From NCBI GenBank assembly GCA_030446715.1, contig JAUJMU010000008.1:186001-250000 (forward strand): 64,000 nucleotides of DNA, in the 5' to 3' direction. Every line of letters begins with the position of its first letter. Position 1 is the stretch's first letter. Below the pieces are notes generated by a model. It worked only from the letters and a program-made list of their open reading frames with translations. It was not told where the DNA came from and did no database searches. Positions 2,564-48,192 of the stretch are shown here, in pieces. The DNA comes from Cytophagales bacterium. Its GTDB lineage: Bacteria > Bacteroidota > Bacteroidia > Cytophagales > 172606-1. Made by a program: the position numbers and the translations under genes.

Positions 2564-2635
2564 GTATTTCTGATTAAAATCTGTTCAAATGTACCGAACC
2601 GGTAAATATCCGTAATTGAACCGGTTTTACGAACG

Positions 2636-4015
2636 TCAATGTCCGGCTACAAAAATGCCTTCTATTTCTTCCAGCGTTTTCCCTTTGGTTTCCATCAGAA
2701 TTCTTAAGCAGAACAGTAGGTTAAAGGCACTGAAACCGGCGAATATCCAGAATACCCCCGCTGCGCCCACGTTTTCCAGCAGCCAGGGAAAAAACTGCCT
2801 GACCAGCCATACCGCCATCCACAGGGATAAAGTACAAAGGGAAACGGCCTTTACCCGTACATCCCCCGGGAAGATTTCGTTGATGAGAATCCAGGTGATG
2901 GGGCCCAGGGAAAGGGCAAAGCAGGCAATGAACAGCAGGAGCATCGCCAGTAACAAGGGGCCATTGGTATAACCGGTATAAAAACAGGCGCCTACTACCA
3001 CCAAAGCGCTGATGATGCCCGAAAATCCCAGAACCAGCAAGGGTTTGCGCCCCAGTTTATCCGATTGGGAAATAGCCACGCCGGTAAAAACGACATTCAC
3101 CACCCCGATAATCACCTGGGAATATAGGGCATCCTCCGTGTTCAGGCCGGCGGCGGCAAAAATCTTAGGCCCGTAGTAAATAATGGCGTTGATGCCGCTG
3201 AATTGCTGAAACACCGCCAGCAGTACCCCGATGAGCAACAGGGGACGGATGTCTTTACTAAACACGGTACGTACGGATTGCCTGTTTTTTACCATCGAAG
3301 CGGTTATAGCGGTATATTCAGCCGCTGCGGCCGGTTCGCCCCGAACGGCTTGCAGAATGGCCAAAGCCCTGCCGGTTTTGCCCCGTAACAACAGCCAGCG
3401 CGGACTTTCGGGCACCAGCAACAGCGCCAGCATAAAGAGAAGCGAAGGAATGGCCATTACCAGGAACATGCTCCGCCAGACTTCCTTCTGCAAGAGTGCG
3501 CTTAACGGCGAATCACTGGCCTGACTCCTGGCGGCCAGGTCTGCCAAAAAGGCATTCGAGAAATAAGCCAGTAAGATGCCGACGGTAATCGCCAATTGAT
3601 AAAGCGCAATCATTTTTCCCCGGGAACGGGCCGGCGCAAATTCGGCAATGTACATCGGCGAAATAACGGAAGCTACCCCCACGCCGATGCCGCCCACCAG
3701 CCGGTACCAGACCAGCATTGCCGCTGAACCGGACCAGGCGCAGCCTACCCCGGAGGCCAGGAAAAGTACGGCCGACAGGATCAATACATTTTTACGGCCG
3801 ATGGTATCGCTTAACAAGCCGGCCACAATCACGCCGATAATACTGCCCAGTAAACCGCTGCTTACAAACCAGCCTTCCATCACCGCGTCCATCGTAAACT
3901 GCCGGTTCACCAGTTCGATGATACCCGAAATAACGGCCGTATCAAAACCAAACAACAAGCCGCCCAGCGCCGCGGCGAAACAAATAAAGCCAGTGGTTTG
4001 AATGCTTTTTATCAT
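2636..4015 (-). CDS. Sugar porter, major facilitator superfamily
   Basis: An inner-membrane hexose or pentose transporter of about 459 residues with 12 predicted membrane helices. The start at 4015 (MIKSIQTTGF) is preferred to an in-frame ATG at 4054, because the latter runs back into the preceding gene, which ends at 4038. Sugar-porter signatures are visible: GGLLFGFDTAVISG in helix 1, SDTIGRKN in the loop 2-3, PESPRWLLLRG after helix 6, QQFSGINAIIYYGP in helix 7 and the C-terminal ETKGKTLEEIE. It sits downstream of hexose-phosphate isomerase and kinase genes, which fits uptake of a free monosaccharide followed by phosphorylation. The gene is intact although its neighbours are broken. The transported sugar is unknown; proton symport is usual for this family. 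Confidence 0.93.
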   Translation of the reverse strand: MIKSIQTTGFICFAAALGGLLFGFDTAVISGIIELVNRQFTMDAVMEGWFVSSGLLGSIIGVIVAGLLSDTIGRKNVLILSAVLFLASGVGCAWSGSAAMLVWYRLVGGIGVGVASVISPMYIAEFAPARSRGKMIALYQLAITVGILLAYFSNAFLADLAARSQASDSPLSALLQKEVWRSMFLVMAIPSLLFMLALLLVPESPRWLLLRGKTGRALAILQAVRGEPAAAAEYTAITASMVKNRQSVRTVFSKDIRPLLLIGVLLAVFQQFSGINAIIYYGPKIFAAAGLNTEDALYSQVIIGVVNVVFTGVAISQSDKLGRKPLLVLGFSGIISALVVVGACFYTGYTNGPLLLAMLLLFIACFALSLGPITWILINEIFPGDVRVKAVSLCTLSLWMAVWLVRQFFPWLLENVGAAGVFWIFAGFSAFNLLFCLRILMETKGKTLEEIEGIFVAGH

Positions 4016-7490: not shown

Positions 7491-8557
7491 CTAAGATGAA
7501 ATTATTGATGCGTATTTAGAAAAGGGAACAAGGTAGTCTGGATGAGTAGTTTAGGTTCTTGCCAGTACTGATGCAGGATTAGCTCAATGCGTTGCTCAAC
7601 CTGATGAAGCGTTTCGAAGACGCGGCATTTGAGTTGTCGGCGCAGTTCCTTGAAAAACCGCTCGACGGGATTAAGTTCCGGATAAGCGGTAGGCAGAAAG
7701 AGTAGCGTTAAGTCGGTCTGTGCTTTAGCGGCACGGTGGCAAGCGGCTTTGTCGGGCACCAGCGTAGTGGCTTTAGCCGTGTGCTCAAGGAGTTGCCGGG
7801 TAAAGATTTGGAAGCACTCGGTAGTCATACCAGGTAGAAAGACGGCAAACAGGTCACCATTGTAAGGACAAATGGCCGTGAACAAATGGCCGAACTGGTA
7901 GCCGATCCTGATGGGACAAATAGGCCGCTCTCCCAGGGGCATCCATCTTCTTTGGGTATCCGTACGCGTGCCGCAGCGCATCTCATCTTGAAAGCAGATG
8001 CTGCTGGCAGGCACGGATTGAGTCAGAGAAGAGAAGTTTTTTTAAAAACTTCCCCACCTGCTTCATCCTTCCGCACATTGCTGGGACGGCCGGTTTTGAG
8101 CTTGATCTTTAAGCGTTGGAAGAGTTTACTGATGCCACTTTGCTTATATCCTACCCCAAAGCTGTTTTTGATCCAGTCGGCGATCTGCTGCTGAGTTAAA
8201 GGCGTAGTAGCATCCCTAAAAAGGCCCCGCAGGCGGGTGATCTGACTGTAGCTCAACTTGCCTGCTGTCCCTTCAAAAGGATAAGTAAGCATTCCGGCAA
8301 GACCTTCCTGCTTGTAGCGCTGCCAGAGCACCTGGCTTTGGCGTGCCTTTAGGCCGATTCTTTCGCCGGCTGCTAGTTGAGTGGTCGAAGTGCCTTCTTT
8401 CAGGTAGCGCACAAATCGGACGTAGTCCCGGTAGCGGGAGTGCTTTTGGGTGCGTTCCATCTCTTGTAGCTCGGCGACACTCTCCTTGATTAAGCTCGGG
8501 TAATCTTTGCTTTTGCCACTCATTTCACCAATATACGCATTGCTAATTTCATTTTAG
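7491..8557 (-). mobile_element. IS630-family insertion sequence, 1067 bp
   Basis: The element is bounded by TA dinucleotides at 7489-7490 and 8558-8559, the TA target duplication of IS630/Tc1-mariner elements. Its imperfect terminal inverted repeats share CTAA(G/A)ATGAAATTA and ATGCGTAT in both ends (7491-7520 and the complement of 8530-8557). It carries one transposase encoded in two overlapping frames. The DDE residues appear intact, so it may be active. It interrupts the cupin glucose-6-phosphate isomerase gene. Confidence 0.93.
7502..8523 (-). CDS. IS630 transposase made by -1 frameshift
   Basis: The upstream frame (8523 to 8023, 166 residues, start MSGKSKDYPSL) holds the helix-turn-helix DNA-binding half, with a second HTH-like segment TQQQIADWIKNSFGVGY. 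The downstream frame (ending 7502) holds the catalytic half. They overlap at a run of seven A residues on the minus strand (about 8037-8043), where slipping back one base turns KKTSLL-stop into KKNFSSLTQSV and on into the catalytic domain. Catalytic residues are the D of CFQDEMRCG, the D of VPDKAACHRA and the E of NPVERFFKELRRQLK. Programmed -1 frameshifting at A-rich heptamers is known for IS630 elements, so this is probably normal expression and not damage. Confidence 0.88.
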
Positions 8558-8804
8558 TATTATGCTGAACTGGCTGCCTTCTCCCCGGATGCCCCAGTGA
8601 AACTCGCCCCGGTCTGACTGGGCGTGAAAGTGCCCGCGGGTCATGAAATACTCTTCCCCTACCTGGCCCGGCTGGAGTTTTGTGATTCCGAAGAACAGGC
8701 CGCCGGTAGTGCCTTCCGGCACGGGAAAAACAGACTTCTACTTCATAGGCCAGTTGATCTCCTGCCATTTGCGCTCTGGCGGATGGTTATCTTAAAAGTA
8801 GTGG

Positions 8805-9071
8805 CCGCACCATCGGTTGCTCCGGCCTTCCCGGAAAATACATCCACCGGGGATATCATTCGTCGCCAAAAGCGGGCACCGAATAAACGCCCCAGTGGAA
8901 ATAAATGCCGAATTTGGTGTCTTTAAACCATTCCAGGGTTTCATCGTGCCCGCTCAGCGAATTCCAGTCTTCGGTGTAGGCTTTCTCTTTTTGCCCCTGA
9001 CCGAAGGCAGCGGTCGTGGCAACGGCCAAGAGCGTAAAAAGTAGAATTTTCGGGTAAGCGTGATGCTTCAT
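8805..9071 (-). pseudogene. N-terminal remnant of GH29 alpha-L-fucosidase
   Basis: The frame starts at 9071 with a signal peptide (MKHHAYPKILLFTLLAVATTAAFGQ) and continues into the hallmark GH29 N-terminus WFKDTKFGIYFHWGVYSVPAFGDE. It then meets TGA where the family has a tryptophan (EWYPR), consistent with TGG to TGA. The same frame reads on as YPRWMYFPGRPEQP and then loses similarity near 8805, where the catalytic barrel has been deleted and the isomerase remnant begins. The start codon overlaps the stop of the upstream symporter gene as ATGA, so the two were translationally coupled. It indicates that the cluster once acted on alpha-L-fucosides. No functional protein is expected. Confidence 0.82.
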
Positions 9072-10237
9072 AATCCGTTAAAGGAAACTGTTTTATCCGT
9101 AAGTTTTTCTCTGCTGGCTGGCGCCGCTTCGGGCGCATTTTCTACGGCAGGGCCCTGGTCTTTGGGCGGTTTCCGGTGCCAGTAAGACGCCAGTGCCGAT
9201 CCGGTAATATTCATCAGCGGGCCGAATACGGCCGGCGCTAAACCAACCGTGGCAATTTTCCCCATTTCTTTGGCAAGTCCGGAGGCGAGTCCGCCATTCT
9301 GCATGCCTACTTCAATGGCAACCGTACGGCAATCGCGTTCACTCATTTTGAACAGACGTGCAGCCCAGTAGCCCAGTGTGTAACCTGACAAATTGTGAAT
9401 CAGCACCACCACTATCAGCGCCGGGCCAATGGCTAATAAACTATCACGGCCGGCAGCGGTAATAATGACAATAATAAAAGCAATGCCGAACATGGAAACC
9501 AAAGGCATGGCCGTATCGAGCCATTTGGCTTTGCCACTCAGTAATTTATTAAAAAGAAGCCCGGCTCCGATGGGAATGATCACCATTTTGATAATGTCCC
9601 ACATCATTTTTAATACGTCAATTTCCACGAATTCTCCGGCCAGCATTTTCATCAACAACGGCGTCATGACCGGCGCCAAAAGCGTGGTGACCGAAGTGAT
9701 GGTGATGGAGAGCGCTACGTTTGCCTTGGCGAGATAAGCCATTACGTTGGAAGCCATGCCGCTGGGCGAACAACCAATCAAAATTACGCCGGCCGCAATT
9801 TCGGCCGGAAACTCAGTGAGGCTGGCCAGCGTAAAACCAAGGCAAGGCATGATAATGAACTGGCTCAATACGCCGATGATTACGCCTTTCGGCATTCTGA
9901 CCACGCCCACAAAATCTCCCAGACTCATGGAAGTGCCCATCCCGAACATAATCAGCTGGATGAGGGGGGTAATGAGGATGGCAAATTTGAACCCGTTCCA
10001 TTCCACGAAATAACCCGGGTAACAGAGGGCGGTGGTGACGGCCGCAAAAATCATGATGGTGTAGGCAAACCCCTTCAGATGGGTAAAACCCCGGAACCCA
10101 ATGGCTAAAGCGATAAAGAAGCCGATAAAAAGAGGTCCCGCCCGGTCAATGGCGCCATTAAAAACCAGGATGAGGGCGGTGGCCAGACAAAGGGCCGCCA
10201 GCCCCAGGAATAATTGATAAATAGTTTTCGTAGTCAA
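9068..10237 (-). CDS. Bile acid:sodium symporter (BASS) family transporter
   Basis: A 389-residue inner-membrane protein with about ten hydrophobic helices. Family marks include the GCSPSGMASNVMAYLAKAN segment of the sodium-binding crossover region and FGMGTSMSLGDF before it. The last 45 residues form a charged cytoplasmic tail. In bacteria the family moves organic anions, including keto acids and sugar acids, with sodium. It follows the RraA-type gene by 56 bp and overlaps the next start by 4 bp (ATGA), so it is part of the same operon. Given the exported sugar-acid enzymes upstream, import of a small organic acid made in the periplasm is a reasonable guess. Substrate unknown. Confidence 0.88.
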   Translation of the reverse strand: MTTKTIYQLFLGLAALCLATALILVFNGAIDRAGPLFIGFFIALAIGFRGFTHLKGFAYTIMIFAAVTTALCYPGYFVEWNGFKFAILITPLIQLIMFGMGTSMSLGDFVGVVRMPKGVIIGVLSQFIIMPCLGFTLASLTEFPAEIAAGVILIGCSPSGMASNVMAYLAKANVALSITITSVTTLLAPVMTPLLMKMLAGEFVEIDVLKMMWDIIKMVIIPIGAGLLFNKLLSGKAKWLDTAMPLVSMFGIAFIIVIITAAGRDSLLAIGPALIVVVLIHNLSGYTLGYWAARLFKMSERDCRTVAIEVGMQNGGLASGLAKEMGKIATVGLAPAVFGPLMNITGSALASYWHRKPPKDQGPAVENAPEAAPASREKLTDKTVSFNGL

Positions 10238-10293
10238 GGTACGGCTTGGTTAAGAGTAGAGGTAAAGGCTCAGTTGAAATGTTGAAAACCGGC

Positions 10294-11223
10294 TTACCAG
10301 GTTCTTTTGCTCATAAATTCATCCAGCTGGGCGCGGGTCAGCTTGGGTTCGTTGGGATTCTGGCCAAGCCATTTCATAAAATCATCTTTAATGGCATCGG
10401 TCCACTGGCTGTCAATCTGACCGGTGCTGTAGCGGCCGGCCTTCAGCATGGCGTGGCCGAATTTATCGCGCAGGGCAATAAACTCCGCGGTGGCTACTAC
10501 TTTTTCGGCCAGGTGCGCCGGAATGAAGAGGACGCCTTCCTTTTCCGAGATGACCAAATCGCCGGGCAACACCAGGGCTCGCCCAATGCGGATGGGGGTA
10601 TTGAGGCCCATCAGGACCACGCCTTCCAGGAACGAGGGGTCAAAGTCGCGCACGAAAGCATTAAATCCCGGTATTTGAGCCAAACCTTTTAAATCGCGGG
10701 CAGCTCCGTCGAAGATAACCCCATTACCCGATTTGGCGAAGATGGAATTGCCCAGGTTATCGCCGATCAGCGTACCCTGGGCGATTTTCCCGAAACCGTC
10801 GGCTACGTACACATCGCCTTTGGTAAGTACATCTATCGGCCAGGCGTTGGTATTGCCCAGGCGGCCTTGTTTCTTGCCGCGTTCCCTGATGCTTTCCTCC
10901 ACGTCCGGGCGGCTGGGCATAAACCGGGCGGTGAGGGCGCGGCCAATCACGGGCACGTCGTCGTGCACCATTTTCCAGTTGCCCTCAAACTGGTTTTTGT
11001 ATCCTTCGTTGTTTAACACCGTCCAGGCTTCTTCAATCCCAATATTGCGGGCACGTTTAATCAAATCATCCGGAATTTTGGGACGCCCATCCGGAAAACG
11101 TTCCCCTTTCCACTGCGAGGTGAGGAAAATTAATTCGTCTTTCGGGATGGTCTGAGCGGCCAGAGCATGAGGGCAGTACAAGCCGATGAGTACGCCTAAT
11201 AAAATGGAAAATTTGAATTTCAT
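10294..11223 (-). CDS. Exported RraA-family protein (aldolase-like)
   Basis: A 309-residue protein with a clear signal peptide (MKFKFSILLGVLIGLYCPHALAAQ), unusual because most RraA/HMG-aldolase proteins are cytoplasmic. The RraA fold is recognised by GRALTARFMPS, GDVYVADGFGKIAQGTLIGDN and the catalytic stretch GVIFDGAARDLKG, where R176 and D177 match the Arg-Asp pair used by 4-hydroxy-4-methyl-2-oxoglutarate aldolases. The tail VLPGDLVISEKEGVLFIP is also typical. About 60 extra residues precede the core. Family members with this pair split 2-keto-4-hydroxy acids to pyruvate and an aldehyde or acid. It lies between an exported cupin gene and the symporter gene. It could act after the exported dehydratase-like enzyme at 13725-15116. 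Family certain, reaction inferred. Confidence 0.85.
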   Translation of the reverse strand: MKFKFSILLGVLIGLYCPHALAAQTIPKDELIFLTSQWKGERFPDGRPKIPDDLIKRARNIGIEEAWTVLNNEGYKNQFEGNWKMVHDDVPVIGRALTARFMPSRPDVEESIRERGKKQGRLGNTNAWPIDVLTKGDVYVADGFGKIAQGTLIGDNLGNSIFAKSGNGVIFDGAARDLKGLAQIPGFNAFVRDFDPSFLEGVVLMGLNTPIRIGRALVLPGDLVISEKEGVLFIPAHLAEKVVATAEFIALRDKFGHAMLKAGRYSTGQIDSQWTDAIKDDFMKWLGQNPNEPKLTRAQLDEFMSKRTW

Positions 11224-11264
11224 GAGTATTGGTTTGCTGAACTTCTTGATTTACTATTTTTAAT

Positions 11265-12233
11265 TTATTTCTTTTCGGCTGATGCTTCCGGCAGTTGGGG
11301 ACATTTCACCCGCACCGCCAGGATGCGGGCATGTTCCGTATCCGTATCCGGGGAGCTGTAAAAGCCGACCAGCGTATTTCTGGCGAAGAAAAAGGCATCG
11401 CCTGCTTTGACCGGATGCCGGGCTTCTTTCCCTTCCGCCGTTTCCCCGGCTACCATTTCGCCGTTACCTCTGAGCATAAAATAGATTTCTTCTTCGTTTT
11501 CGTGGCGGTGCGGAATATTGGTACCCCCGGGGTCAAAATCAATGACGTACAGGCTGTTGATTTGGTTAGCCGCTGCCAGCCGGTCGCGTTTGCTGTTGGT
11601 ATTGCCCAGGAGCAACTGGAACCGGCTGGAGGGCCCGTGGTTACTCTGGGGCAGGAGCTGGAACGCAACTTGGCCGGCGTTCGCCAGGGGCAGGCGGGGC
11701 GGTGGCTTTACGGCTGCGTTAGCCGGTATTTCCACGCCCATTACCATCAACTGGAGCGTATCTTCCCGCGGATTGGCGAAACCGTGCCGGGCGCCGATGG
11801 GCAAGTAGAAAAAATCGTCTTTGCTGACCGGAACTTCCCGGTTGCCGTAACGCAGTAGGCCGGTACCCGCCAGCACGTAATAAACTACCTCTTCCCGGTT
11901 ATAGTTGACCGGCCTGCTTTCGCCGTCCGGGTCGATGGACAGGAGCCCGTAGTGTTTTACTGCTTTCACAACCTCACTGTTGGCTGAGCCAACACCGAAC
12001 AGCGGCTGGTACCGGGCCGTTTTGGTTGAAACGTGCGTATGTACTTCCGGCGCCTGCCCAATGGATTGCCTTAGGTATTGCGTCTGGGCAGAGGCCGGCA
12101 GTGCCTGCAACAGCAGGAAAACACTACTGCCTGTCGTTAATACTATAGCCCTGGCGAGGCAGCGAAGCCGCCTGCTTCTTTCAAGATTGCTCTGCAAGAC
12201 TGCTTGCTCCCTGTGATGCGTTTGGTGTGTCAT
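11265..12233 (-). CDS. Exported double-cupin protein
   Basis: A 322-residue protein with a long basic N-region and a hydrophobic segment ending in an AlaXAla-like site (LLLQALPASAQ, about residues 40-50), so it is probably secreted; Met-1 is accepted although an internal start is possible. Two cupin folds follow. The first has the histidine in GARHGF (about residues 150-155). The second has IPHRHENEEEIYFMLRG, a clear metal-binding HxH(x)nE motif, and KAGDAFFFARNTLVGF. Cupins of this shape can be isomerases, dioxygenases or simple sugar binders. It lies between the metallohydrolase and the RraA-type gene with short gaps, so it belongs to the same operon. No specific function can be assigned. 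Confidence 0.8.
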   Translation of the reverse strand: MTHQTHHREQAVLQSNLERSRRLRCLARAIVLTTGSSVFLLLQALPASAQTQYLRQSIGQAPEVHTHVSTKTARYQPLFGVGSANSEVVKAVKHYGLLSIDPDGESRPVNYNREEVVYYVLAGTGLLRYGNREVPVSKDDFFYLPIGARHGFANPREDTLQLMVMGVEIPANAAVKPPPRLPLANAGQVAFQLLPQSNHGPSSRFQLLLGNTNSKRDRLAAANQINSLYVIDFDPGGTNIPHRHENEEEIYFMLRGNGEMVAGETAEGKEARHPVKAGDAFFFARNTLVGFYSSPDTDTEHARILAVRVKCPQLPEASAEKK

Positions 12234-12272
12234 GCGCTGATTGGTACGTGGGTCAGGAGGATTATAACCTGC

Positions 12273-13523
12273 TTATTTGGGCACCGACAAACCGGCCGTG
12301 CTGGCCAGGCCATTTAAGTCATACACAACTTTGCCGGCCCGGATGGTCAGTTCGCATTCCAGTTTCTGCTTGCCTGTTATTTTGGCGTTAGCCGCATCCA
12401 GGAAGCCGAAGCTGCCGTTGCGGATGCTCAACACGGCTACATCGGCTACGGCCCCTTCGCTTAAATGCCCCAGTTCCGGGTGTTTGATGGCCGTAGCCGG
12501 GTTCCAGGTAGCTCCCGCAATCAGTTCGGGCATCGTCATACCCAGGGTCAGGTATTTGGACAGCACATTGAGGATATCTTTCATGCCGGAGTTCATGCTC
12601 TTGTAGTGCAGATCCGTACCGAAAGAAGTAGGCCTCAGCCCTTGCTGATAGGCGGGTATGGCGGCGCTGAAGTGGAAACTGGCCCCGCCGTGCCCCACGT
12701 CAAACAAAATCCCCCGCTTTTGGGCTTCCAGCACGTAAGGCCGCACCTTGCCCTGGTCGTCCACTACCGATACCCGGTCGGCGGACGTTTTCTTAAATGA
12801 TTGGGAAAAAATATCGCCGGGGCGCATCCGCTTGAGCATTTCTTCTAAGGGCAGTTTGGGCAGGTGGGCTTCGATGATGATGGGCACGTTGGCCATTTTC
12901 CCGGCTTCCAGGGCGCGGTCGAAAGGCGCCCAGTCGCTGCCGTGGTAATGCCCGATTTTAACGCCGACGATCAGTTCCGGGTACTGCCCGATCACCAGCG
13001 AGGTCATGCGGGCGTCCATGTCGTTCATGTCCTGCTCGGTGGGGAACCCGGACATACCGCTGCCGGCAATGTTTAAAAAGGCTAACACCCGGGTGATGGA
13101 TTGATCAATCACCTGCTGCTTGAAAAGGGGAAAGTTCCGCCAGCCCGAGGTTCCGGCGTCTACTACGGTCGTCACCCCGGACTCCAGGGTAAAATCGTCC
13201 GGCGAGAGGCTGTAAATCCCGTTGGCGAACACGCCGGCCGTCGGGCCCACGAACACGTGCGTATGCAAATCAATCAGGCCCGGTGTAACGTACGTACCGG
13301 CAGCATCCACCACTTTGGCGGCCTGGGCGGCCGGAATGTCTTTGGCTACTCGGGCAATTTTATCCCCGTTCAGGGCTACGTCCATGATCCCGTTCAGCTT
13401 ATTTTTGGGGTCAATGACGTGGCCGCCTTTCAGCAGCAGGGTATAGGCCGGCGCCGTCTGGCCTTGCAACCTGCTCATACCAAGGCAGGTAATCAACAAC
13501 ACTAAAAGGTATCTATTCTTCAT
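12273..13523 (-). CDS. Exported amidohydrolase/deacetylase-family metallohydrolase
   Basis: A 416-residue amidohydrolase-superfamily protein with a signal peptide (MKNRYLLVLLITCLGMSRLQGQ). Metal ligands are visible in order: H87 and H89 in LIDLHTHVF, a lysine in GVKIGHYHG that can be carbamylated, a histidine in IIIEAHLP, the DVGHGGASF histidine and the aspartate in FGTDLHYKSM. The N- and C-terminal segments (LLKGGHVIDPKN and GAVADVAVLSI) form the small beta-sandwich of the family. Relatives annotated as deacetylases or lactonase-like enzymes act on amides or esters. It sits directly after the enolase-superfamily gene; a lactonase-type step on a sugar lactone would fit, but this is a guess. 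Confidence 0.85.
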   Translation of the reverse strand: MKNRYLLVLLITCLGMSRLQGQTAPAYTLLLKGGHVIDPKNKLNGIMDVALNGDKIARVAKDIPAAQAAKVVDAAGTYVTPGLIDLHTHVFVGPTAGVFANGIYSLSPDDFTLESGVTTVVDAGTSGWRNFPLFKQQVIDQSITRVLAFLNIAGSGMSGFPTEQDMNDMDARMTSLVIGQYPELIVGVKIGHYHGSDWAPFDRALEAGKMANVPIIIEAHLPKLPLEEMLKRMRPGDIFSQSFKKTSADRVSVVDDQGKVRPYVLEAQKRGILFDVGHGGASFHFSAAIPAYQQGLRPTSFGTDLHYKSMNSGMKDILNVLSKYLTLGMTMPELIAGATWNPATAIKHPELGHLSEGAVADVAVLSIRNGSFGFLDAANAKITGKQKLECELTIRAGKVVYDLNGLASTAGLSVPK

Positions 13524-13586
13524 CTCGAGTCTATTGTAGAGATATGGATCTGCCGCTTTTTTAATTATTGCAAGAAGCTGTTTTAA

Positions 13587-13677
13587 AACCTCACCCCCGG
13601 CCCCTCTCCTGGGGAGAGGGGAGAAAAATCGGCGCTTTTATTCCCCCTCTCCCCAGGAGAGGGGTTGGGGTGAGGTT
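13587..13677. repeat. Long imperfect hairpin of the CCTCACCCC type
   Basis: The arms 13587-13621 and about 13643-13677 are near-complementary and begin AACCTCACCC, with a 21-base A/T-richer loop. Each arm itself contains a small hairpin (CCCCTCTCCtGGGGAGAGGGG). A diverged relative lies at 38856-38938. It sits between the enolase-superfamily and metallohydrolase genes, so it may trim or attenuate the transcript; it looks like a dispersed intergenic repeat and not a simple terminator. Confidence 0.8.
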
Positions 13678-13724
13678 CTTTTTAGGAACCATCAACCAGA
13701 TGTACCCTATTATAACTATTCCCT

Positions 13725-15116
13725 TTAATTGGTAGACATGCCCAAACCATCCGACGAACGCTTCTCGTTCCACTGCGTGGTGGGGGCAAAGAAACTTTTA
13801 TCGGTCGGGTGCAGCAGCCTTTTCATTTCGGGTTCGTTCAATTCAATGCCTAAACCCGGCGCATCAAGCGGCACGTTGGCGAATCCTTTGGTAATCAAGG
13901 GCAGCTTACCGGTTGGCTTGACCATTCTGGCCCATTCCTCAATGTCGTCGGGGTGGTACTCCAGCACCAGGCAGTTTTCGGTGGCGGCGGCGCAGTGTAC
14001 ATTGGCCATGAAGGAAACCGGCGTACCGGCAAAATGGAGGCCCATCCCGATGCCCTTATCCTGGGCGTAATCACCGATTTTTTTGGTTTCCAGGAGTCCA
14101 CCAGCCGTGGCCAGGTCCGGGTGGACGATGTCCACCGCGTGAATGTCACACATTTTCCGGAAGGGCTCCAGCAGGTACATGTCTTCGCCGGCAGCGGTAG
14201 GCACGTTAATGGACTCGGTAACGGTTTTTAACTGGTCGGTCAGGTTCCAGGGAATCACTTCTTCCATCCAGGCGAGCCGGTACGGTTCGAGGGCTTTGCC
14301 CAGGTTGATCATTGTATTCATATCGCGGTCCCGGAAGTGGTCCACGTTAATGGGAATGTCGTACCCCACGTGTTTGCGGAGGGTTTCTACGTAGCGCACC
14401 ACTTCGGGAATCCGCTTGTCGGCCGGCACATCCACCAGAATATTGCGGACGCGGGTCATTTTCAGCCAGGTAAACCCTTGTACCTCAATCCGATGCTTGA
14501 CGGAAGCTACGATTTTATCGAAGTCTTTATCCCCGTGGGTGTCAGCGTATAAGCGTACCGTATCCCGGTAGCGGCCGCCCAGCATTTGCCAGCACGGCGC
14601 CCCGTAGGCTTTACCCGCCAGATCCCAAAGGGCCATTTCTACCCCGCTTACTCCGCCGCCCAGGCGTCCGTTACCCCCAAAGGGTTTAATAATTTTAAAT
14701 AGTTTCTCTACGTTACAGGGATTTTCGCCCAATAGCCGGCTTTTGAGCATCAGCGCGTAGCGTTCATCACCTCCGTCACGCACTTCGCCCAGGCCATAAA
14801 TGCCCTGGTTCGTATCCATTCGCAGGATGGGAATCCGACGGCCTAAATGGGTAACCAGGATATAGCGCAGGTCGGTTATTTTCAACGCCGACGGGTTAGA
14901 GGCCCGGTTTACGTTAGACGTAGTCTGGGCAAGGGTATCTTCAATAGATGAAAACAGGAAAGCACTCAGGGAAAGTCCACCCAGGGCCGTCTTTTTCAGG
15001 AAACTCCGCCGGCTTTCAGCCGTGGCAGGGTGGTTTGTTTCGGCCTGGCGGCTGGCAGCTTCGGCTTTCTCCCGGGTTTGGTGGGCTTCAGTGATTTGTT
15101 TTACAACACTTTTCAT
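13725..15116 (-). CDS. Exported enolase-superfamily (mandelate racemase/muconate lactonising) enzyme
   Basis: A 463-residue protein with an N-terminal twin-arginine signal (SRRSFLKKTALGGLSLSAFLF, RR at 36-37), so it is probably exported folded by Tat. The mandelate-racemase fold follows. Metal ligands are D259 (INVDHF), E285 (AWMEEV) and E311 (AGED); the second base is likely the H361/D334 pair (MGLHFAG and VHPDLATAGG). The usual K-x-K base motif reads WLKMTR, so only the first lysine is kept. Members with this dyad are acid-sugar dehydratases or epimerases. The gene follows SusD by 44 bp. A sugar-acid dehydratase role in the periplasm is inferred. Length is about 60 residues above the cytoplasmic family because of the leader. 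Confidence 0.87.
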   Translation of the reverse strand: MKSVVKQITEAHQTREKAEAASRQAETNHPATAESRRSFLKKTALGGLSLSAFLFSSIEDTLAQTTSNVNRASNPSALKITDLRYILVTHLGRRIPILRMDTNQGIYGLGEVRDGGDERYALMLKSRLLGENPCNVEKLFKIIKPFGGNGRLGGGVSGVEMALWDLAGKAYGAPCWQMLGGRYRDTVRLYADTHGDKDFDKIVASVKHRIEVQGFTWLKMTRVRNILVDVPADKRIPEVVRYVETLRKHVGYDIPINVDHFRDRDMNTMINLGKALEPYRLAWMEEVIPWNLTDQLKTVTESINVPTAAGEDMYLLEPFRKMCDIHAVDIVHPDLATAGGLLETKKIGDYAQDKGIGMGLHFAGTPVSFMANVHCAAATENCLVLEYHPDDIEEWARMVKPTGKLPLITKGFANVPLDAPGLGIELNEPEMKRLLHPTDKSFFAPTTQWNEKRSSDGLGMSTN

Positions 15117-15160: not shown

Positions 15161-16690
15161 TTATTTATCCCAGAAAATGCGGGTAGCCAGGTTATCGGGT
15201 CCCATACGGGCCACCGCAGCGTGGTAATTAGCCGCATTAACCGATACTTCTCTCACCGGGTAAGTCAAACGGCGAATAAAACTTCCTTTCACCGATGGAT
15301 CGGCTGCCGGATACGGATTGGGCGTCAGCTCCGGAAAACCGCTCCGGCGGAAATTGGCCCAGGCCTCGGCCCCGTCCAGGAAAGAGGCAATCCAGTACTG
15401 GGTATTTATCTGCTCCAAAGCTCGAGCCGGGTTAAAAGCATTCGCCGCCAGGTAAGCCTCCTGACTGGCAGCCGTAATGGCAGCCGACGCATCGTATTGC
15501 CTCATCTGGTCCATATGTGCCCGTACCCCGGCCTTGTACAGCGTTGCCGCGTCCCCGGCAATCCAGCCGCGGTGGGCGGCCTCAGTCAGCAGTAATTGCG
15601 TCTGCGCCGCGGTCACGAAGAAGGCCGGGGCGTCAATTTTACCCAGCGTGCGGCGGTTGAGCTGGGAATATTTCCAGGCCGAACCTATTTTACCCGGGTA
15701 GCCGGGGGCGGTGCTGATGGTGGATTCGTTGTACCCGTAAGGCATGCCTTCCTGGTTGGCCGGGTTGGTGTCTTCCGCGCCGGCCGTTGCCAGGGGATTG
15801 GCCGGAATGGCGTACTTCACCGCGATTACCTTCAGGCGGGGGTCAGCCGTACTTTTCAGGTAATCCACAAAGGGCTTGCCCAGGTACAGGTTAAACCGGT
15901 CGGAGTTCAGGAAAATACCGGTGATCGGACTGTTGTACGTACTGTTGTAGACAATCATGGCGTTTGAGGCAACCGATTGGATCAGGCCGCCATTCGCCGG
16001 GTTGGCCGCGACCGCCACGTATTGCCGGGCCTTCTCGGGGTCTACTTTACTCAGGCGCATGGCGGCCCGTAATAAGAGCGAATTGCCCAGCTGCTTCCAC
16101 TGCGCAATATTGCCTTTGTATAGCAGATCCCCTTTTTCAATGGGTGCGGCAGGGTCCAGGGCCCCGGTAGCTTCTTGCAGCTCATTTAAAATGTCGTCGT
16201 AAATATCGGGCGCGGCATCGTACCGGGGCAGATTGACCGCGCCCAAATAGGCCTGGCCCGCTTCCCAATACGGCACATCACCGTAGGTATCAACTAAAAT
16301 TTGAAACACGTACGCCCGCCAGATGCGGGCCATCTGGTACAGATTGCTGCGGCCCGGATTGTCCCTGGTCTGCTTCAGCACGTCGGCCAGCAGCTGGACC
16401 GGGCCGGTGTATAAGGCATTAAACGCGGAACGGGTATTGGGGTCGTAGTCTACATTCCGGTTTCCGCCCTCCCGGGCCCCTCCCACGGCGGTGATGATTT
16501 GCTGTACAATCTGGCTCTGGTAATCAACGGTAGAAATCACGGAGGTAAACTGGGCATTGGAAAACAGGTAACCGGGGTCCATCGTGGTGGGCAGAACCGG
16601 GTTGGTATTGATTTCCTCAAAATTCCGGTCGCAGCTGCTGGCGCCCAAAAAGAATGCAAGCAGCGCCAGGCAGGTATCTATCTTTTTCAT
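15161..16690 (-). CDS. SusD-like outer-membrane lipoprotein
   Basis: A 509-residue SusD/RagB-type glycan-binding lipoprotein. The lipobox is ALLAFFLGASSC, with the lipidated Cys at about residue 20. The protein continues as DRNFEEINTNPVLPTTMDPGYLFSNAQ, the start typical of the SusD-like subgroup paired with STN-less SusC proteins. TPR-like helices follow, with a conserved LYQMARIWRAYVFQILVDTYGDVPYWEA segment. It caps the SusC channel on the cell surface and binds oligosaccharide. It lies 22 bp after the susC gene and heads the set of exported enzymes. Ligand unknown. Confidence 0.93.
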   Translation of the reverse strand: MKKIDTCLALLAFFLGASSCDRNFEEINTNPVLPTTMDPGYLFSNAQFTSVISTVDYQSQIVQQIITAVGGAREGGNRNVDYDPNTRSAFNALYTGPVQLLADVLKQTRDNPGRSNLYQMARIWRAYVFQILVDTYGDVPYWEAGQAYLGAVNLPRYDAAPDIYDDILNELQEATGALDPAAPIEKGDLLYKGNIAQWKQLGNSLLLRAAMRLSKVDPEKARQYVAVAANPANGGLIQSVASNAMIVYNSTYNSPITGIFLNSDRFNLYLGKPFVDYLKSTADPRLKVIAVKYAIPANPLATAGAEDTNPANQEGMPYGYNESTISTAPGYPGKIGSAWKYSQLNRRTLGKIDAPAFFVTAAQTQLLLTEAAHRGWIAGDAATLYKAGVRAHMDQMRQYDASAAITAASQEAYLAANAFNPARALEQINTQYWIASFLDGAEAWANFRRSGFPELTPNPYPAADPSVKGSFIRRLTYPVREVSVNAANYHAAVARMGPDNLATRIFWDK

Positions 16691-16712: not shown

Positions 16713-19700
16713 TTAGAATCGAACGTTTAAATTCAGGCCGTAGCTGCGGGTGGTCGGGAGCACGTGGTACTCCATGCCCTGGTAATTATCCGATACCGAT
16801 ACCTGGGCCTCCGGGTCAAGGTTGTCAATGTATTTTTTAATCAGCCATACGTTGTTTACGCTGGCTGAAAGCGTCATGCCCTTTACCAAAGGTTTATTGA
16901 TTACCCGCGCTAAATCGTAGCCCACCGAAAGGGTACGCCACCGGATAAAGCTCGCGTCATAAATAAAGGGGGTGGCAATGGTCTTGCCCCGGAAGTTGTC
17001 GTAAAACTCGTCGGCGGGCACGGCGGTGGTATTGGGCGAACCGTCGGCATTGACCCCGTCAAATACAACGCCTCCCCCGCGGCCTACCAGCGACTGTTTA
17101 GATAACCCGTGGCGCAGGAAGTTAAAATTGGAATTGGAGAAAATGACGCCCCCGGCTTTGAAATCAACCTGGGTAAAAATCCGGAGGCCTTTGTAGGTGA
17201 AGGTGTTCAACCAGCCTCCGGTCCAACGCGGAATGGCGCTGCCAAAGTTGGTAAGTTCTCCTTGCAAAGGCTTTCCGCCGGAGGTCAGAATGCGTCCCTG
17301 CTCGTCGCGTTTATAGTCAAAGCCCCGTACGGAACCCAGCGGCTGGCCCACTTCGTGCGATACCAAGCCTAAATGCTGCCCGGCGGAGACGTCGAATACC
17401 TGTTGGCCGTTAGCCAGTTCCAGCACCTTACTGATATTGTACGAAGTATTAAAGACGGTTTCCCACCGGAAAGCGCCTTTCTCTACGGGTACCAGGGTAA
17501 GTAATGATTCTATCCCCTGATTCCGTAATTTGCCCACGTTTACCTTGGTCTGGCTGTAGCCGGAGGCATTGGAAATATCCACGTTCAGGATTTCGTCTAC
17601 GGTATTTTTGCGGTACACCGTAACATCCAGGCTGACCCGGTTATTAAGGATTCTCAACTCCAGGCCTGCTTCGGCTTCTTTTACTTTCAGTGGCCTCAGA
17701 TTCGCGTTCGGACTCACCGCGTTGGCAATGTTGCCGAGCGGTACGCCGTTGAATGGATTCGCGTTAATCGAGTAGTACAGATTGTCAGCGTAAGGCTCGG
17801 TGTCCCCGCCCACTTCGGCGTAAGCCGCCCGGAGTTTCCCGTACGTAAGCCAGGCAGGCACCGAAGAAAAAGCCTCGCTGAGTACCAGACTGGTGCTGAC
17901 CGACGGGTACAGGTAGCTATTCGACTGGGGGTTTAAAGTGGAGAACCAATCATTGCGGCCGGTGATGTTTAAAAACAGGAAGTCCTTGAACGAGAACTCG
18001 GTGGAGCCATACAGGGAATTGACCCGCTTCTGCCTGTAATTGTAAAAGGGCGCTTTCACCTGGCCGTTGCCGATGGTGTACAAATCCCGGACGTAAAATC
18101 CTTCGACGGCTGTACCCAGGTTTTCGTAGACCTGCTTCATCTGGTTTCCGCCGAAGGTTACGTCCAAACCGAAAGCCCCGAACGTATGGTTGCCGCCCAC
18201 CAGAAAATCCAGGTTTCGCTCCCGGAAGGCAGTGGCATCCTGGTAATACCGGCCGGAAAATCCGATGGCGGGGATCGGGTTGCCGTACGTGCCGGTGGGG
18301 ATGTACCGGTCAGATGGCCGGTTGTAGTAATCCTGCCCGATGCGGCCCTGCACGTACAGCCAGTCGGTGAACTGGTAGCGGACGGAGGCATTGCCGAAAA
18401 TGCGGTCGCGCCGGATATTCTCACTGTTTTCGTAAGCTACCCAGTACGGATTGTTGCGGTTAAAGGTAGAAATGGACAATTCGTTGCCATCCGCATCTTT
18501 CCGGTTTTTGAGCCATTCCACATCAATGCTGTTGGCCATGGTATAAATGGTCGTAGGAATACTGTGGCTTTGCGTGCTTATCTGCGGCGGATTGCGGTTG
18601 AATTCATTGGAATAATTGGCGTTCAGCTGCGCGGAAAGCTTCGGCGTAAATTTGTAGGCTAACCCAAAATTTACAATTTTCTTGTGAAAATCGGAGTTGG
18701 GCACGATGCCCCTGGCGTCGGTATTGGCAAGCGAAAAGTTAAAGTTTCCTTTCTCGTTTCCGCCCGATAAACCAATTGAGTTCGTCAGGCTGGTGCCAGT
18801 CCGGAAGAAGTCTTTAATGCGGTTCCGGTGCGGCGAGTAAGGCTGCAGAGAGCCGTCGAATTGAAAAGTGGGCTGGCCATCAAATTTTTCCCCGAAAGCC
18901 CAGGTGCCCGAAGCTTTGGCTTCCGCCGCCGTTGCCTGCCGCACCCCGTTGCGCCCCTGCCCGTATTCGTACTGAAAATCGGTATAATCAAGGGCTTCAT
19001 CGGCCTGGAAGTTCATGTTGTAAGAAACTCCGATACCGGTTGTTTTGGCACCGGATTTCGTGGTGATAATCACCGCGCCGTCTTTCGCCCGGAAGCCGTA
19101 CAGCGCCGCCGCGGCGGCTCCTTTCAGCACGGTCATGGATTCAATATCATCGGGGTTGATGCTTTGCAACCCGTCGCCGCCGTCGGAAGACCCGCCGGTG
19201 GGATTTTCCGTATTACGCGCACCAGTGGGGATGCTGGAATTATTAATCGGGATGCCATTCACGACGATGAGCGGGGAGTTGTCGCCGCCGAAAGAGGACT
19301 GGCCCCGGATGCGGAGTTTAGCCGACCCCCCCGGCCCGCTGGCCGGCGTAGATACGTTCAAGCCCGCTACTTTCCCCTGCAGGCTGCTTCCCACGTTGGG
19401 CGTGCGGTTGGTGGTGAGCTGCTCGGTATTTACCGTTGCCGTGGCGTAGCCCAGCTTTTTGGCTTCTTTTTTAATGCCCAGCGCCGTAACCACTACTTCA
19501 TCCAGGACTTTGTTGTCTTCCCGTAGCACCACGTTGATTGTAGCACGGTCATTTACGGCGACTTCCTGCGTCTCAAACCCAATGAAAGAAAAAACCAGCG
19601 TGCTGTTACCGGGCACATCCATCGAATACTTTCCCTGGGAATCGGTCGTGGTGCCGGTCGTGGTGCCTTTCACGATGATGTTGACGCCCGTTAAGGAACT

Positions 19701-19970
19701 TCCATTGCTATCCGTTACCTGGCCCGAAACAAGACCTTTAACGTCCCGGCGCAGTTCCCCAGGCGATTCTTTTGGGAGTTCCCGGCTGATTGCTACCCGG
19801 TTGATTGCCAAGCTTTTAGCGGGTACGGCCGGGAACAACGGAATGGAGGTTGCCAGTACACCCAGTAAAACCGTTCCCACCCGCACGGGTAGTTTTTTAA
19901 AAAGCAGACCATGCCTGCGCGGCCAGTCATTAAGATGCCGCCGTTCAACAGAATGTACCGACTGATTCAT
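16713..19970 (-). CDS. SusC-like TonB-dependent outer-membrane transporter (no STN domain)
   Basis: A 1085-residue SusC/RagA protein. After an N-terminal hydrophobic segment (about residues 30-50) comes a carboxypeptidase-regulatory-like domain (about 80-165, VSGQVTDSNGSSLTGVNIIVKG), then a TonB-box region NKVLDEVVVTALGIKKEAKKLGY, the plug (SLQGKVAGLNVSTPASGPGG, RIRGQSSFGGDNSPLIVVNG, NPDDIESMTVLKGAAAAALYG) and a 22-strand barrel ending in the C-terminal aromatic NVRF. It lacks the STN signalling domain present in the other two SusC proteins of the window, so it is probably not controlled by a FecIR pair. It imports an oligosaccharide with the downstream SusD. Confidence 0.95.
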   Translation of the reverse strand: MNQSVHSVERRHLNDWPRRHGLLFKKLPVRVGTVLLGVLATSIPLFPAVPAKSLAINRVAISRELPKESPGELRRDVKGLVSGQVTDSNGSSLTGVNIIVKGTTTGTTTDSQGKYSMDVPGNSTLVFSFIGFETQEVAVNDRATINVVLREDNKVLDEVVVTALGIKKEAKKLGYATATVNTEQLTTNRTPNVGSSLQGKVAGLNVSTPASGPGGSAKLRIRGQSSFGGDNSPLIVVNGIPINNSSIPTGARNTENPTGGSSDGGDGLQSINPDDIESMTVLKGAAAAALYGFRAKDGAVIITTKSGAKTTGIGVSYNMNFQADEALDYTDFQYEYGQGRNGVRQATAAEAKASGTWAFGEKFDGQPTFQFDGSLQPYSPHRNRIKDFFRTGTSLTNSIGLSGGNEKGNFNFSLANTDARGIVPNSDFHKKIVNFGLAYKFTPKLSAQLNANYSNEFNRNPPQISTQSHSIPTTIYTMANSIDVEWLKNRKDADGNELSISTFNRNNPYWVAYENSENIRRDRIFGNASVRYQFTDWLYVQGRIGQDYYNRPSDRYIPTGTYGNPIPAIGFSGRYYQDATAFRERNLDFLVGGNHTFGAFGLDVTFGGNQMKQVYENLGTAVEGFYVRDLYTIGNGQVKAPFYNYRQKRVNSLYGSTEFSFKDFLFLNITGRNDWFSTLNPQSNSYLYPSVSTSLVLSEAFSSVPAWLTYGKLRAAYAEVGGDTEPYADNLYYSINANPFNGVPLGNIANAVSPNANLRPLKVKEAEAGLELRILNNRVSLDVTVYRKNTVDEILNVDISNASGYSQTKVNVGKLRNQGIESLLTLVPVEKGAFRWETVFNTSYNISKVLELANGQQVFDVSAGQHLGLVSHEVGQPLGSVRGFDYKRDEQGRILTSGGKPLQGELTNFGSAIPRWTGGWLNTFTYKGLRIFTQVDFKAGGVIFSNSNFNFLRHGLSKQSLVGRGGGVVFDGVNADGSPNTTAVPADEFYDNFRGKTIATPFIYDASFIRWRTLSVGYDLARVINKPLVKGMTLSASVNNVWLIKKYIDNLDPEAQVSVSDNYQGMEYHVLPTTRSYGLNLNVRF

Positions 19971-21314: not shown

Positions 21315-22226
21315 CTACACGCGGCTCCAGGCTTCGTTCAGGACGCGTTTGGCGTTGGCGATGACCACATCCGGGTCTTCGTCGCCGAAGGGCTTGACTT
21401 CGAAACTGACGATGGGCGGATTTTCCGGGTTCAGGAAACCAATTTCCAGCAGCACCCGCAGGTAATGCACCACTTCATCCACGTCATTCTCCCCGTTGGG
21501 GAAGCCAAAGCGGGGGTGTACGTCACCGTAGCCGGGCAGATCCGGGCTTTTCACCACGCAATTGCCCAGGTGCGCATGGATAATGTAATCTTTCACCGGC
21601 AACAGCGATTCTTCAATCGTTTCGTGGATCAGCGGAATGTGGCTCAGGTCCACCATCAGACCGAAGTTGGCGTACTCTTTTCTCACTTCCCGGGCGTAGC
21701 GCAGGGCCAGCCCGGCCGGTCCGATCAAGCTTTTTTTATCAACGTCGTAATCAAACACTTCCAGGGCAATCTTCATGTTCCCTTTGCTCCGGGCGTAGGC
21801 ACATATTTCTTTGGTGGACTGCACCAGGGCGGCGTAGGCGGCTTCTTTGGTAGCTTCCTGGTATTGTCCGCTCAGAAAAGAAAAACCGGCGGCGCCCATT
21901 TCGAAGGCCTCATCAATGCCTTCTTTCAGATTGGCCAAAGCCCGTTGCCTGGCTCCTTCATCCAGGTCATTTATGTTTAACCCGTTGGTCAGGAGCCGGG
22001 GCTGGGCGCCGTACACTACCGTCATGTGCGCTGTTTCCAGCATTTTTTTTACGCGCTGCCGGGTGGTCCGGTCCTTTATCGTGGTGATTTCAATGGCCGT
22101 AAAATATTCATCAGTGGCCAGCTTCCTGATGGTTTCCAGCACAGGTCCTTCTCCTTTGATCGTTTCCGGGAAAGCCATGAAATGCACCAGTCCCACTTTC
22201 ATGTATTTGTATAGCGGTTCGTTCAT
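21315..22226 (-). CDS. Sugar phosphate isomerase/epimerase-like TIM barrel
   Basis: A 303-residue xylose-isomerase-like TIM-barrel protein without signal peptide. The four metal ligands of the family are visible in order: Glu in IALEVFDYD, Asp in LMVDLSHIPL, His in YIIHAHLGN and Glu in VSFEVKPFGDE. Start MNEPLYKYMKVG; a second Met at about residue 9 is possible. The family covers epimerases, isomerases and dehydratases such as inosose dehydratase and hydroxypyruvate isomerase. It lies between the permease and the D-2-hydroxyacid dehydrogenase. Hydroxypyruvate/tartronate chemistry would fit the neighbour, but the substrate cannot be read from sequence. Confidence 0.87.
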   Translation of the reverse strand: MNEPLYKYMKVGLVHFMAFPETIKGEGPVLETIRKLATDEYFTAIEITTIKDRTTRQRVKKMLETAHMTVVYGAQPRLLTNGLNINDLDEGARQRALANLKEGIDEAFEMGAAGFSFLSGQYQEATKEAAYAALVQSTKEICAYARSKGNMKIALEVFDYDVDKKSLIGPAGLALRYAREVRKEYANFGLMVDLSHIPLIHETIEESLLPVKDYIIHAHLGNCVVKSPDLPGYGDVHPRFGFPNGENDVDEVVHYLRVLLEIGFLNPENPPIVSFEVKPFGDEDPDVVIANAKRVLNEAWSRV

Positions 22227-48159: not shown

Positions 48160-48192
48160 AGGCAGCAAGATATGATTTGGTGGGTGGTACAC

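Follow-up and report, generated by a model that had tools for sequence, protein, structure and literature searches.

A Cytophagales gene cluster that may carry a periplasmic branch of sugar-acid catabolism

In non-phosphorylative pathways of the Entner–Doudoroff type, an acid-sugar dehydratase first removes water from a sugar acid and a pyruvate aldolase then cleaves the product. They are cytoplasmic, and their aldolases belong to families other than the one discussed here; the cytoplasm is usually regarded as the place where sugar acids are deaminated and their C–C bonds cleaved. Here we describe a gene cluster in a stretch of 64,000 nucleotides (hereafter the window; assembly GCA_030446715.1, contig JAUJMU010000008.1, positions 186,001 to 250,000) of the 6.4 Mb genome of a Cytophagales bacterium. 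The cluster may constitute a branch of sugar-acid catabolism that works in the periplasm by dehydration, aldol cleavage to pyruvate and import through a BASS-family symporter, a reading that we consider evenly poised between right and wrong.

The nearest known pathway is the ong system for oxidised chitin in Pseudoalteromonas prydzensis. According to the cited part of that report, the deacetylase OngB and the pyridoxal phosphate (PLP) enzyme OngC convert N-acetylglucosaminate to 2-keto-3-deoxygluconate, the RidA protein OngD is essential, and a cytoplasmic location is predicted for OngB and OngC (PMC9537276). OngB is elsewhere characterized as D-aminoacylase-like (PMC12017989). Cytoplasmic sugar-acid enzymes next to a polysaccharide utilization locus (PUL), as one account presents them, are distinct from the exported cluster considered here (PMC11036162). 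In the open-licence literature we recognised no report of an exported RraA/MR or RraA/DgaE pathway, although one may exist elsewhere.

The cluster occupies the minus strand and reads, in gene order, as follows.

16713-19970, minus strand: SusC-type TonB-dependent outer-membrane transporter (PF13715, PF07715)
15161-16690, minus strand: SusD-like surface lipoprotein with a lipobox (PF12771, E 4.2e-78)
13725-15116, minus strand: MR, an enolase-superfamily enzyme of the mandelate racemase type with a Tat signal, likely an acid-sugar dehydratase (PF13378, PF02746)
12273-13523, minus strand: AHS, an amidohydrolase/deacetylase-family protein with a Sec signal and a metal site altered at one position (PRK09237)
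11265-12233, minus strand: double cupin, probably exported (PF07883, two stretches)
10294-11223, minus strand: RraA-type class II aldolase-like protein with a Sec signal (PF03737)
9068-10237, minus strand: BASS-family sodium symporter of the inner membrane, likely importer of a keto-acid product (PF01758)

The genes named in the initial annotation of this locus are all present and in the order that it gave, and every Pfam assignment in the cluster exceeds its curated cut-off; the range assigned at that time, 9068-15116, omitted SusD and SusC. The intergenic gaps measure 22-56 bases, except for 201 bases between MR and AHS.

From this arrangement we infer every reaction, substrate and direction of transport as follows. 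The SusCD pair would deliver a sugar acid, or a sugar oxidised outside the cytoplasm, to the periplasm. AHS might take off an acyl group beforehand, or perform a related hydrolysis given its altered metal site. The Tat-exported MR would dehydrate the acid to a 2-keto-3-deoxy acid, the Sec-exported RraA protein, acting as a class II aldolase, would cleave it to pyruvate and an aldehyde, and the cytoplasm would receive the keto acid through BASS.

The location of these steps was addressed with home-made rules for sequence-based prediction, applied to sets from which sequences with identical C-terminal ends had been removed. The strict rule demanded a positive n-region, an uncharged hydrophobic core near the start and a small-residue cleavage site (Sec) or, alternatively, an RR motif with an uncharged stretch after it (Tat). 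It was passed by 157 of 172 RraA proteins, 42 of 43 AHS proteins and 54 of 64 MR proteins, the latter all by the Tat alternative, and also by a second MR type (23/23), DgaE (31/33), RidA (28/36), SGL lactonase (15/19), a GSDH/cytochrome c protein (7/13) and LACT lactonase (1/7). None of 60 cytoplasmic controls (ThiC, ThiG, ThiH, ThiF, CysS, HADH) passed, and FecR did so once in 45. A loose signal-peptide rule was discarded because the control ThiF passed it in 18 of 19 cases. Export is therefore supported as a conserved predicted property of the RraA, AHS and MR families. Of 69 MR proteins, 68 have an RR-x-F motif close to the N-terminus, among them that of the window, which bears the consensus Tat motif SRRSFLK. 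The initial annotation had placed export signals on all four enzymes; those of MR (Tat), AHS and RraA stand by the strict rule, while the window's cupin, with its long n-region, failed that rule and passed the loose one alone. Since the loose rule also admitted cytoplasmic controls, we grade the export of the cupin as probable.

The second line of evidence is the company that these genes keep in relatives. MR was found in 92 of 390 Cytophagales genomes (E <= 1e-50), RraA in 96 of 390 (E <= 1e-40) and AHS in 45 of 380 (E <= 1e-70), and a profile of the exported RraA matched 23 of 390 Bacteroidota genomes at E <= 1e-50. Neighbourhoods were compared in 40 loci retrieved for the most part around MR, with MR as called in 38; in 80 named RraA loci, the best 80 of 581 relatives among the matches listed, a choice that favours RraA proteins close to the window's; and in 60 further loci hand-picked across genera from MR and RraA search matches, some of whose genomes recur in the 80 (L115, L090). 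Locus counts take no account of kinship. Open reading frames (ORFs) of these loci were called with a longest-ORF script at a minimum of 110 residues, which short or overlapped genes can escape; it overlooked the window's own TIM-barrel gene at 21315-22226.

Within five genes of MR, 30 of the 38 loci hold RraA, 19 SusD, 17 SusC, 15 BASS and none AHS, and of 30 adjacent MR/RraA pairs, 23 share a strand. MR is rare in the window's own genome, with just two matches at E <= 0.001, and yet RraA lies close in 30 of 38 loci; the association is therefore more than chance. Conservation of the cluster in other genomes had been named at the outset as a test of the proposal, and the clustering does recur. 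Within six genes of RraA, the 80 loci hold BASS in 40 cases, AHS in 35, SusD in 31, RidA in 30, SusC in 29, DgaE in 23, SGL in 15, the GSDH/cytochrome c protein and MR in 11 each, and the second MR type and LACT in 5 each. The conserved groupings are MR-RraA-SusCD-BASS and AHS-DgaE-RidA-RraA-BASS. SusC, SusD, RidA, DgaE, AHS, RraA, BASS is a frequent order, which Dyadobacter koreensis (L122) and Chitinophaga sp. GbtcB8 (L166) share with others; the locus of Xanthocytophaga flavus (L115) has a further AHS along with a GSDH/cytochrome c protein and a lactonase.

These neighbourhoods reveal an alternation. An exported RidA or DgaE stands near RraA in 30 of the 80 loci and an MR-type enzyme in 14, and the two never coincide (0/80; hypergeometric 0.0006, kinship ignored), the overlap being 0 in the other 69 loci as well. 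Two unrelated enzymes therefore seem to share one slot before RraA. Enolase-superfamily acid-sugar dehydratases convert sugar acids to 2-keto-3-deoxy acids, and DgaE-type enzymes release ammonia from 2-amino-sugar acids, a route that also ends in 2-keto-3-deoxy acids. The alternation of MR with DgaE/RidA ahead of RraA and BASS provides our strongest argument that RraA would act on a 2-keto-3-deoxy acid. As for the window, DgaE and RidA searches gave no match beyond noise there. Elsewhere in its own genome, a DgaE-like stretch is split over two frames (L195 9600-10351, G000 contig C3), either a true remnant or an assembly error.

The motif and the predicted fold of the window's RraA point to a class II pyruvate aldolase of the HMG/CHA type as its predicted activity. 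The protein carries D155-X20-R176-D177, matching the D-X20-R-D motif of HMG/CHA-type aldolases. R176-D177 is kept in all 83 copies of a first set, in which 53 combine Asp155 with Gly180, 29 combine Ser or Ala155 with Glu180 and one has neither; a larger set of 172 (identical C-terminal ends removed) divides into 90 of the first pattern, 63 of the second and 18 of neither, with one unread. The window's RraA shows the first pattern (Asp155). The generalisation that an RraA protein never lacks a metal acid was true of 82 of 83 copies at first and was given up when only 153 of 172 agreed with it. The two patterns mirror the two motifs one of which, as reported in the cited section, most HMG/CHA aldolase homologues carry (PMC5065237). 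The same account lists Arg123, Asp124 and the metal-site Glu199 as functional in HMG/CHA aldolase (PMC5065237), and alignment leaves two candidate residues of the window's RraA, R252 or D253, at the Glu199 position. The AlphaFold2 model of the window's RraA (pLDDT 83.8) has HMG/CHA aldolase 3NOJ as its top Foldseek match (E 2.1e-14), and VIA-align superposes the two with a Z of 21.2 and a root mean square deviation of 3.3 across 209 residues, ranking 5X15, an RNase-ES inhibitor relative (Z 22.6), 3K4I (22.2) and 5IR2 (21.9) ahead. As modelled, the fold alone cannot tell an aldolase from an RNase-E regulator; a regulatory role is disfavoured because a protein that regulates a cytoplasmic enzyme would have no need of export.

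RraA could instead be a decarboxylase, either of the dehydratase/decarboxylase type seen in FlDet or one acting on beta-keto acids, and yield a semialdehyde or a shorter keto acid together with CO2, which would leave the location and the upstream steps as proposed above. The precedent is the Flavobacterium enzyme FlDet, an RraA-family member that is described as converting 2-keto-3-deoxy-glucarate to alpha-ketoglutarate semialdehyde (PMC8563752), and some exported RraA proteins lack the usual metal acids. However, FlDet starts at its own Met with no signal and requires a diacid substrate, the window's RraA has the aldolase-type motif, and 3NOJ is the top Foldseek match, though several RraA-fold proteins score similarly by VIA-align. 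We therefore regard decarboxylation as unlikely, and aldol cleavage remains the preferred assignment.

By path length, the nearest RraA proteins come from AHS/DgaE loci (L115, 82% over 285 columns), and the smallest well-supported group, of 71 rows, is mixed: 22 are DgaE rows, another 20 come from MR loci whose RraA are paired, and the remainder is of other kinds. It is suggested, not shown, that the window derived from an AHS/DgaE-type cluster in which MR replaced DgaE and RidA. Tandem exported RraA pairs also occur (L070, L072, L076-L078, L099-L101 and others); both copies carry Ser/Ala155 and Glu180, and they perhaps form hetero-oligomers.

In MR, the metal ligands D259, E285 and E311, together with K219 and the D334-H361 dyad, are invariant among 50 close members, the window's included, and the catalytic positions align with those of 2QQ6. 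Its best NCBIfam model is galactonate dehydratase (184 bits, under the cut-off of 311), and it is likely an acid-sugar dehydratase. The window's MR is some 30 residues under the family median of 494 and deviates at several otherwise conserved sites; these deviations mark it as a subtype, probably with its own substrate, which cannot be read from the sequence. In an Opitutaceae metagenome-assembled genome (MAG; L120), an MR with the signature residues of the window adjoins a 72% RraA; a sulfatase gene (2369-3841) comes after this pair. No MR was found in viral contigs. Adhaeribacter aquaticus (L185) has a single row of nine MR-type and three RraA genes.

A substrate derived from aromatic compounds, or another acid, would turn MR into a muconate-type cycloisomerase, RraA into a CHA-type aldolase and the cupin into an oxygenase. 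Double cupins do include dioxygenases, and HMG/CHA aldolase serves gallate and protocatechuate breakdown in the cited account (PMC5065237). However, the muconate cycloisomerase model scores MR at 57 bits against the 184 of galactonate dehydratase, and the relatives carry sugar dehydrogenases, gluconolactonase-type proteins and a glucosaminate-lyase-type enzyme, so we find an aromatic route highly improbable next to a sugar-acid one.

The double cupin is an orphan. A search for relatives in 394 other Bacteroidota genomes yielded nothing at E <= 1e-20, plasmids gave none either, and none was confirmed in wider genome contigs, where the method was limited to close relatives. The 400-residue bicupins of clusters that pair RraA with a pyrroloquinoline quinone (PQQ) dehydrogenase match it weakly (E 4e-7 and 9e-6, 21-23% identity), and its AlphaFold2 model (pLDDT 51.3) was too poor for a fold search. 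Those bicupins belong to a third exported set (L105, L108, L186, L187, L191, L193), in which they accompany RraA and a PQQ dehydrogenase; some loci add a 591-residue protein without a Pfam match.

AHS scores 419.4 bits against the amidohydrolase/deacetylase model PRK09237 (cut-off 371), a family of the COG3964 type, and has 2OGJ, 8JE0 and 2ICS as relatives. All 40 copies, the window's among them, retain the HxH, Lys and Asp metal ligands; on beta5, 39 of the 40 have Asp and the window has Glu, as do its nine nearest copies (56-62%). The His residues that 2OGJ carries on strands 5 and 6 are Glu and Gln in the window. Identical C-terminal ends were removed from the 40-copy set, which may share sequences with a second set of 18. 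The initial annotation had cast this metallohydrolase as the opener of a lactone; family membership speaks for an amidohydrolase/deacetylase, and a lactonase role is not our first choice. The order proposed there, oxidation, lactone opening, dehydration (or deamination), cleavage and import, can be read from the genes of those relatives in which a sugar dehydrogenase/cytochrome c fusion and a lactonase both lie near RraA (8 of the 80 loci). By family, the window's metallohydrolase is no lactonase. Separately, L206-L214 contain exported tandem AHS pairs and a GSDH/cytochrome c protein with no RraA close by, and 3 of these 9 loci have a distant DgaE-like protein.

The symporter matches the SBF domain PF01758 at 135.8 bits (cut-off 24.3) and falls under the cut-offs of the subfamily models TIGR00841 and PanS. 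Relatives are reported, in the part cited, to transport pyruvate, glycolate or pantoate (PMC10645422), by analogy with which the window's BASS likely imports the keto-acid product. Another candidate importer had been sought in the operon upstream, which runs FecR, SusC, SusD, PQQ dehydrogenase/cytochrome c, LctP, TIM-barrel protein, D-2-hydroxyacid dehydrogenase and includes the following genes.

24164-26413, minus strand: PQQ dehydrogenase with cytochrome c, a lipoprotein with a lipobox (PF01011, PF13442)
22353-24134, minus strand: LctP-family lactate/glycolate permease (TIGR00795, 589.4 bits, above cut-off)
21315-22226: TIM-barrel gene

The PQQ dehydrogenase occurs near RraA in 8 of the 80 loci, one of its relatives (59%) standing close behind three RraA genes and one MR (L181). 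LctP occurs in none of the 80 named RraA loci and in one of the other 69, at 29%. That this operon joins the pathway is thus possible but weakly supported. Of the two genes that the initial outline drew on, the dehydrogenase is a possible partner with a weak link, and relatives lend no support to a link of the permease with the cluster.

The suggestion of fucose is not supported. The GH29 remnant behind it is real, a single 69-residue stop-to-stop fragment (PF01120, E 3.7e-13), yet this broken fragment next to a transposase gene pair is the sole basis for L-fucose as substrate. Fragments of the GH29 alpha-L-fucosidase and of a GPI-type cupin (PF06560) lie at 8524-9067 on the minus strand, between BASS and the transposase pair (DDE_3, 7502-8014; HTH, 8023-8523). 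Sulfatase genes are found in the window at 1181-2563, 42867-44294 and 46675-48192; a sulfated glycan as the source of the substrate is only a hint.

Several observations weigh against a periplasmic pathway of dehydration, aldol cleavage and import. RraA is missing within five genes from 8 of the 38 MR loci, and BASS from 23. BASS is likewise missing from 40 of the 80 RraA loci, and 32 of the 80 have none of MR, DgaE, RidA and PQQ dehydrogenase. Of the 18 RraA proteins in 172 that carry neither acid pattern, 12 sit in DgaE loci. FlDet, in the portion of the report cited, dehydrates and decarboxylates with no aldol cleavage (PMC8563752), and one BASS protein tested did not bind ketopantoate, according to the cited passage (PMC10645422). 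MR and AHS occur together in none of the 149 relative loci, so the exact gene set of the window is not conserved. Finally, the beta6 His of AHS, kept in 39 of 40 and in 18 of 18 copies, is Gln in the window only, and the AHS step is the least certain for this reason.

The last two points also suit a different history, a remodelled and partly decaying locus in which RraA and BASS function, AHS and the cupin are altered or non-functional, and no single linear pathway exists. The 201-base gap between MR and AHS holds an inverted repeat with two 34-base arms (13595-13670), the core pattern of which has no second occurrence in the window; the transposase genes and the GH29 and GPI fragments lie immediately downstream of the cluster; and the split DgaE-like stretch and the lack of a close cupin relative fit as well. 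Nevertheless, the five enzyme and transporter genes are long intact frames with short gaps save that between MR and AHS, the export signals of MR, AHS and RraA and the catalytic residues of MR and RraA are kept, and the window's type of MR recurs beside RraA in the Opitutaceae MAG. We consider decay rather unlikely and favour a working sugar-acid pathway. The initial outline is preserved in its conserved clustering and predicted export, with corrections to its lactonase, its weakly supported link to the PQQ dehydrogenase/LctP operon and its unsupported fucose.

A wider reading, which we advance tentatively and with somewhat more doubt than belief, is that many Bacteroidota break down both sugar acids and amino-sugar acids entirely in the periplasm and without phosphorylation, MR replacing DgaE and RidA in the window. 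An exported dehydrogenase, lactonase and deacylase would act first, then either a Tat-exported PLP ammonia lyase with a Tat-exported RidA or a Tat-exported enolase-superfamily dehydratase, and then the exported RraA, and only pyruvate-like acids would pass the inner membrane, via BASS. If this is true, a PLP enzyme, a RidA and an aldolase all work outside the cytoplasm, where the freed pyruvate and aldehydes could leak to neighbours. Predictions of Bacteroidota diet and release based on PULs would then have to take in a new class of exported enzymes, RraA-named proteins would acquire a role in metabolism, and there would be a testable reason why Bacteroidota genomes contain so many exported genes of the enolase-superfamily, amidohydrolase and RraA kinds.

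Compared with known systems, the locus would run familiar chemistry in an unusual place. The window's RraA shares the fold, the Arg-Asp pair and the D-X20-R-D spacing with HMG/CHA aldolase, but is only ~20% identical, is longer and is predicted to be exported, whereas HMG/CHA aldolase is a cytoplasmic enzyme of aromatic breakdown. FlDet, as described in the cited text, is also a Bacteroidota RraA-family enzyme that acts on a 2-keto-3-deoxy sugar acid; it differs in having 237 residues and no signal peptide, in decarboxylating its substrate, and in lying outside any SusCD cluster with MR (PMC8563752). The ong system, so far as the cited accounts extend, resembles the window's relatives, which cluster an amidohydrolase, a DgaE-type PLP enzyme and RidA, but OngB and OngC have a predicted cytoplasmic location and their product is phosphorylated by KdgK (PMC9537276, PMC12017989). 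Export is predicted for the enzymes of the cluster described here, which shows no kinase and continues with RraA and BASS. The window itself departs one step further from ong, since the PLP deaminase and RidA are absent and MR stands in the place of DgaE and RidA.

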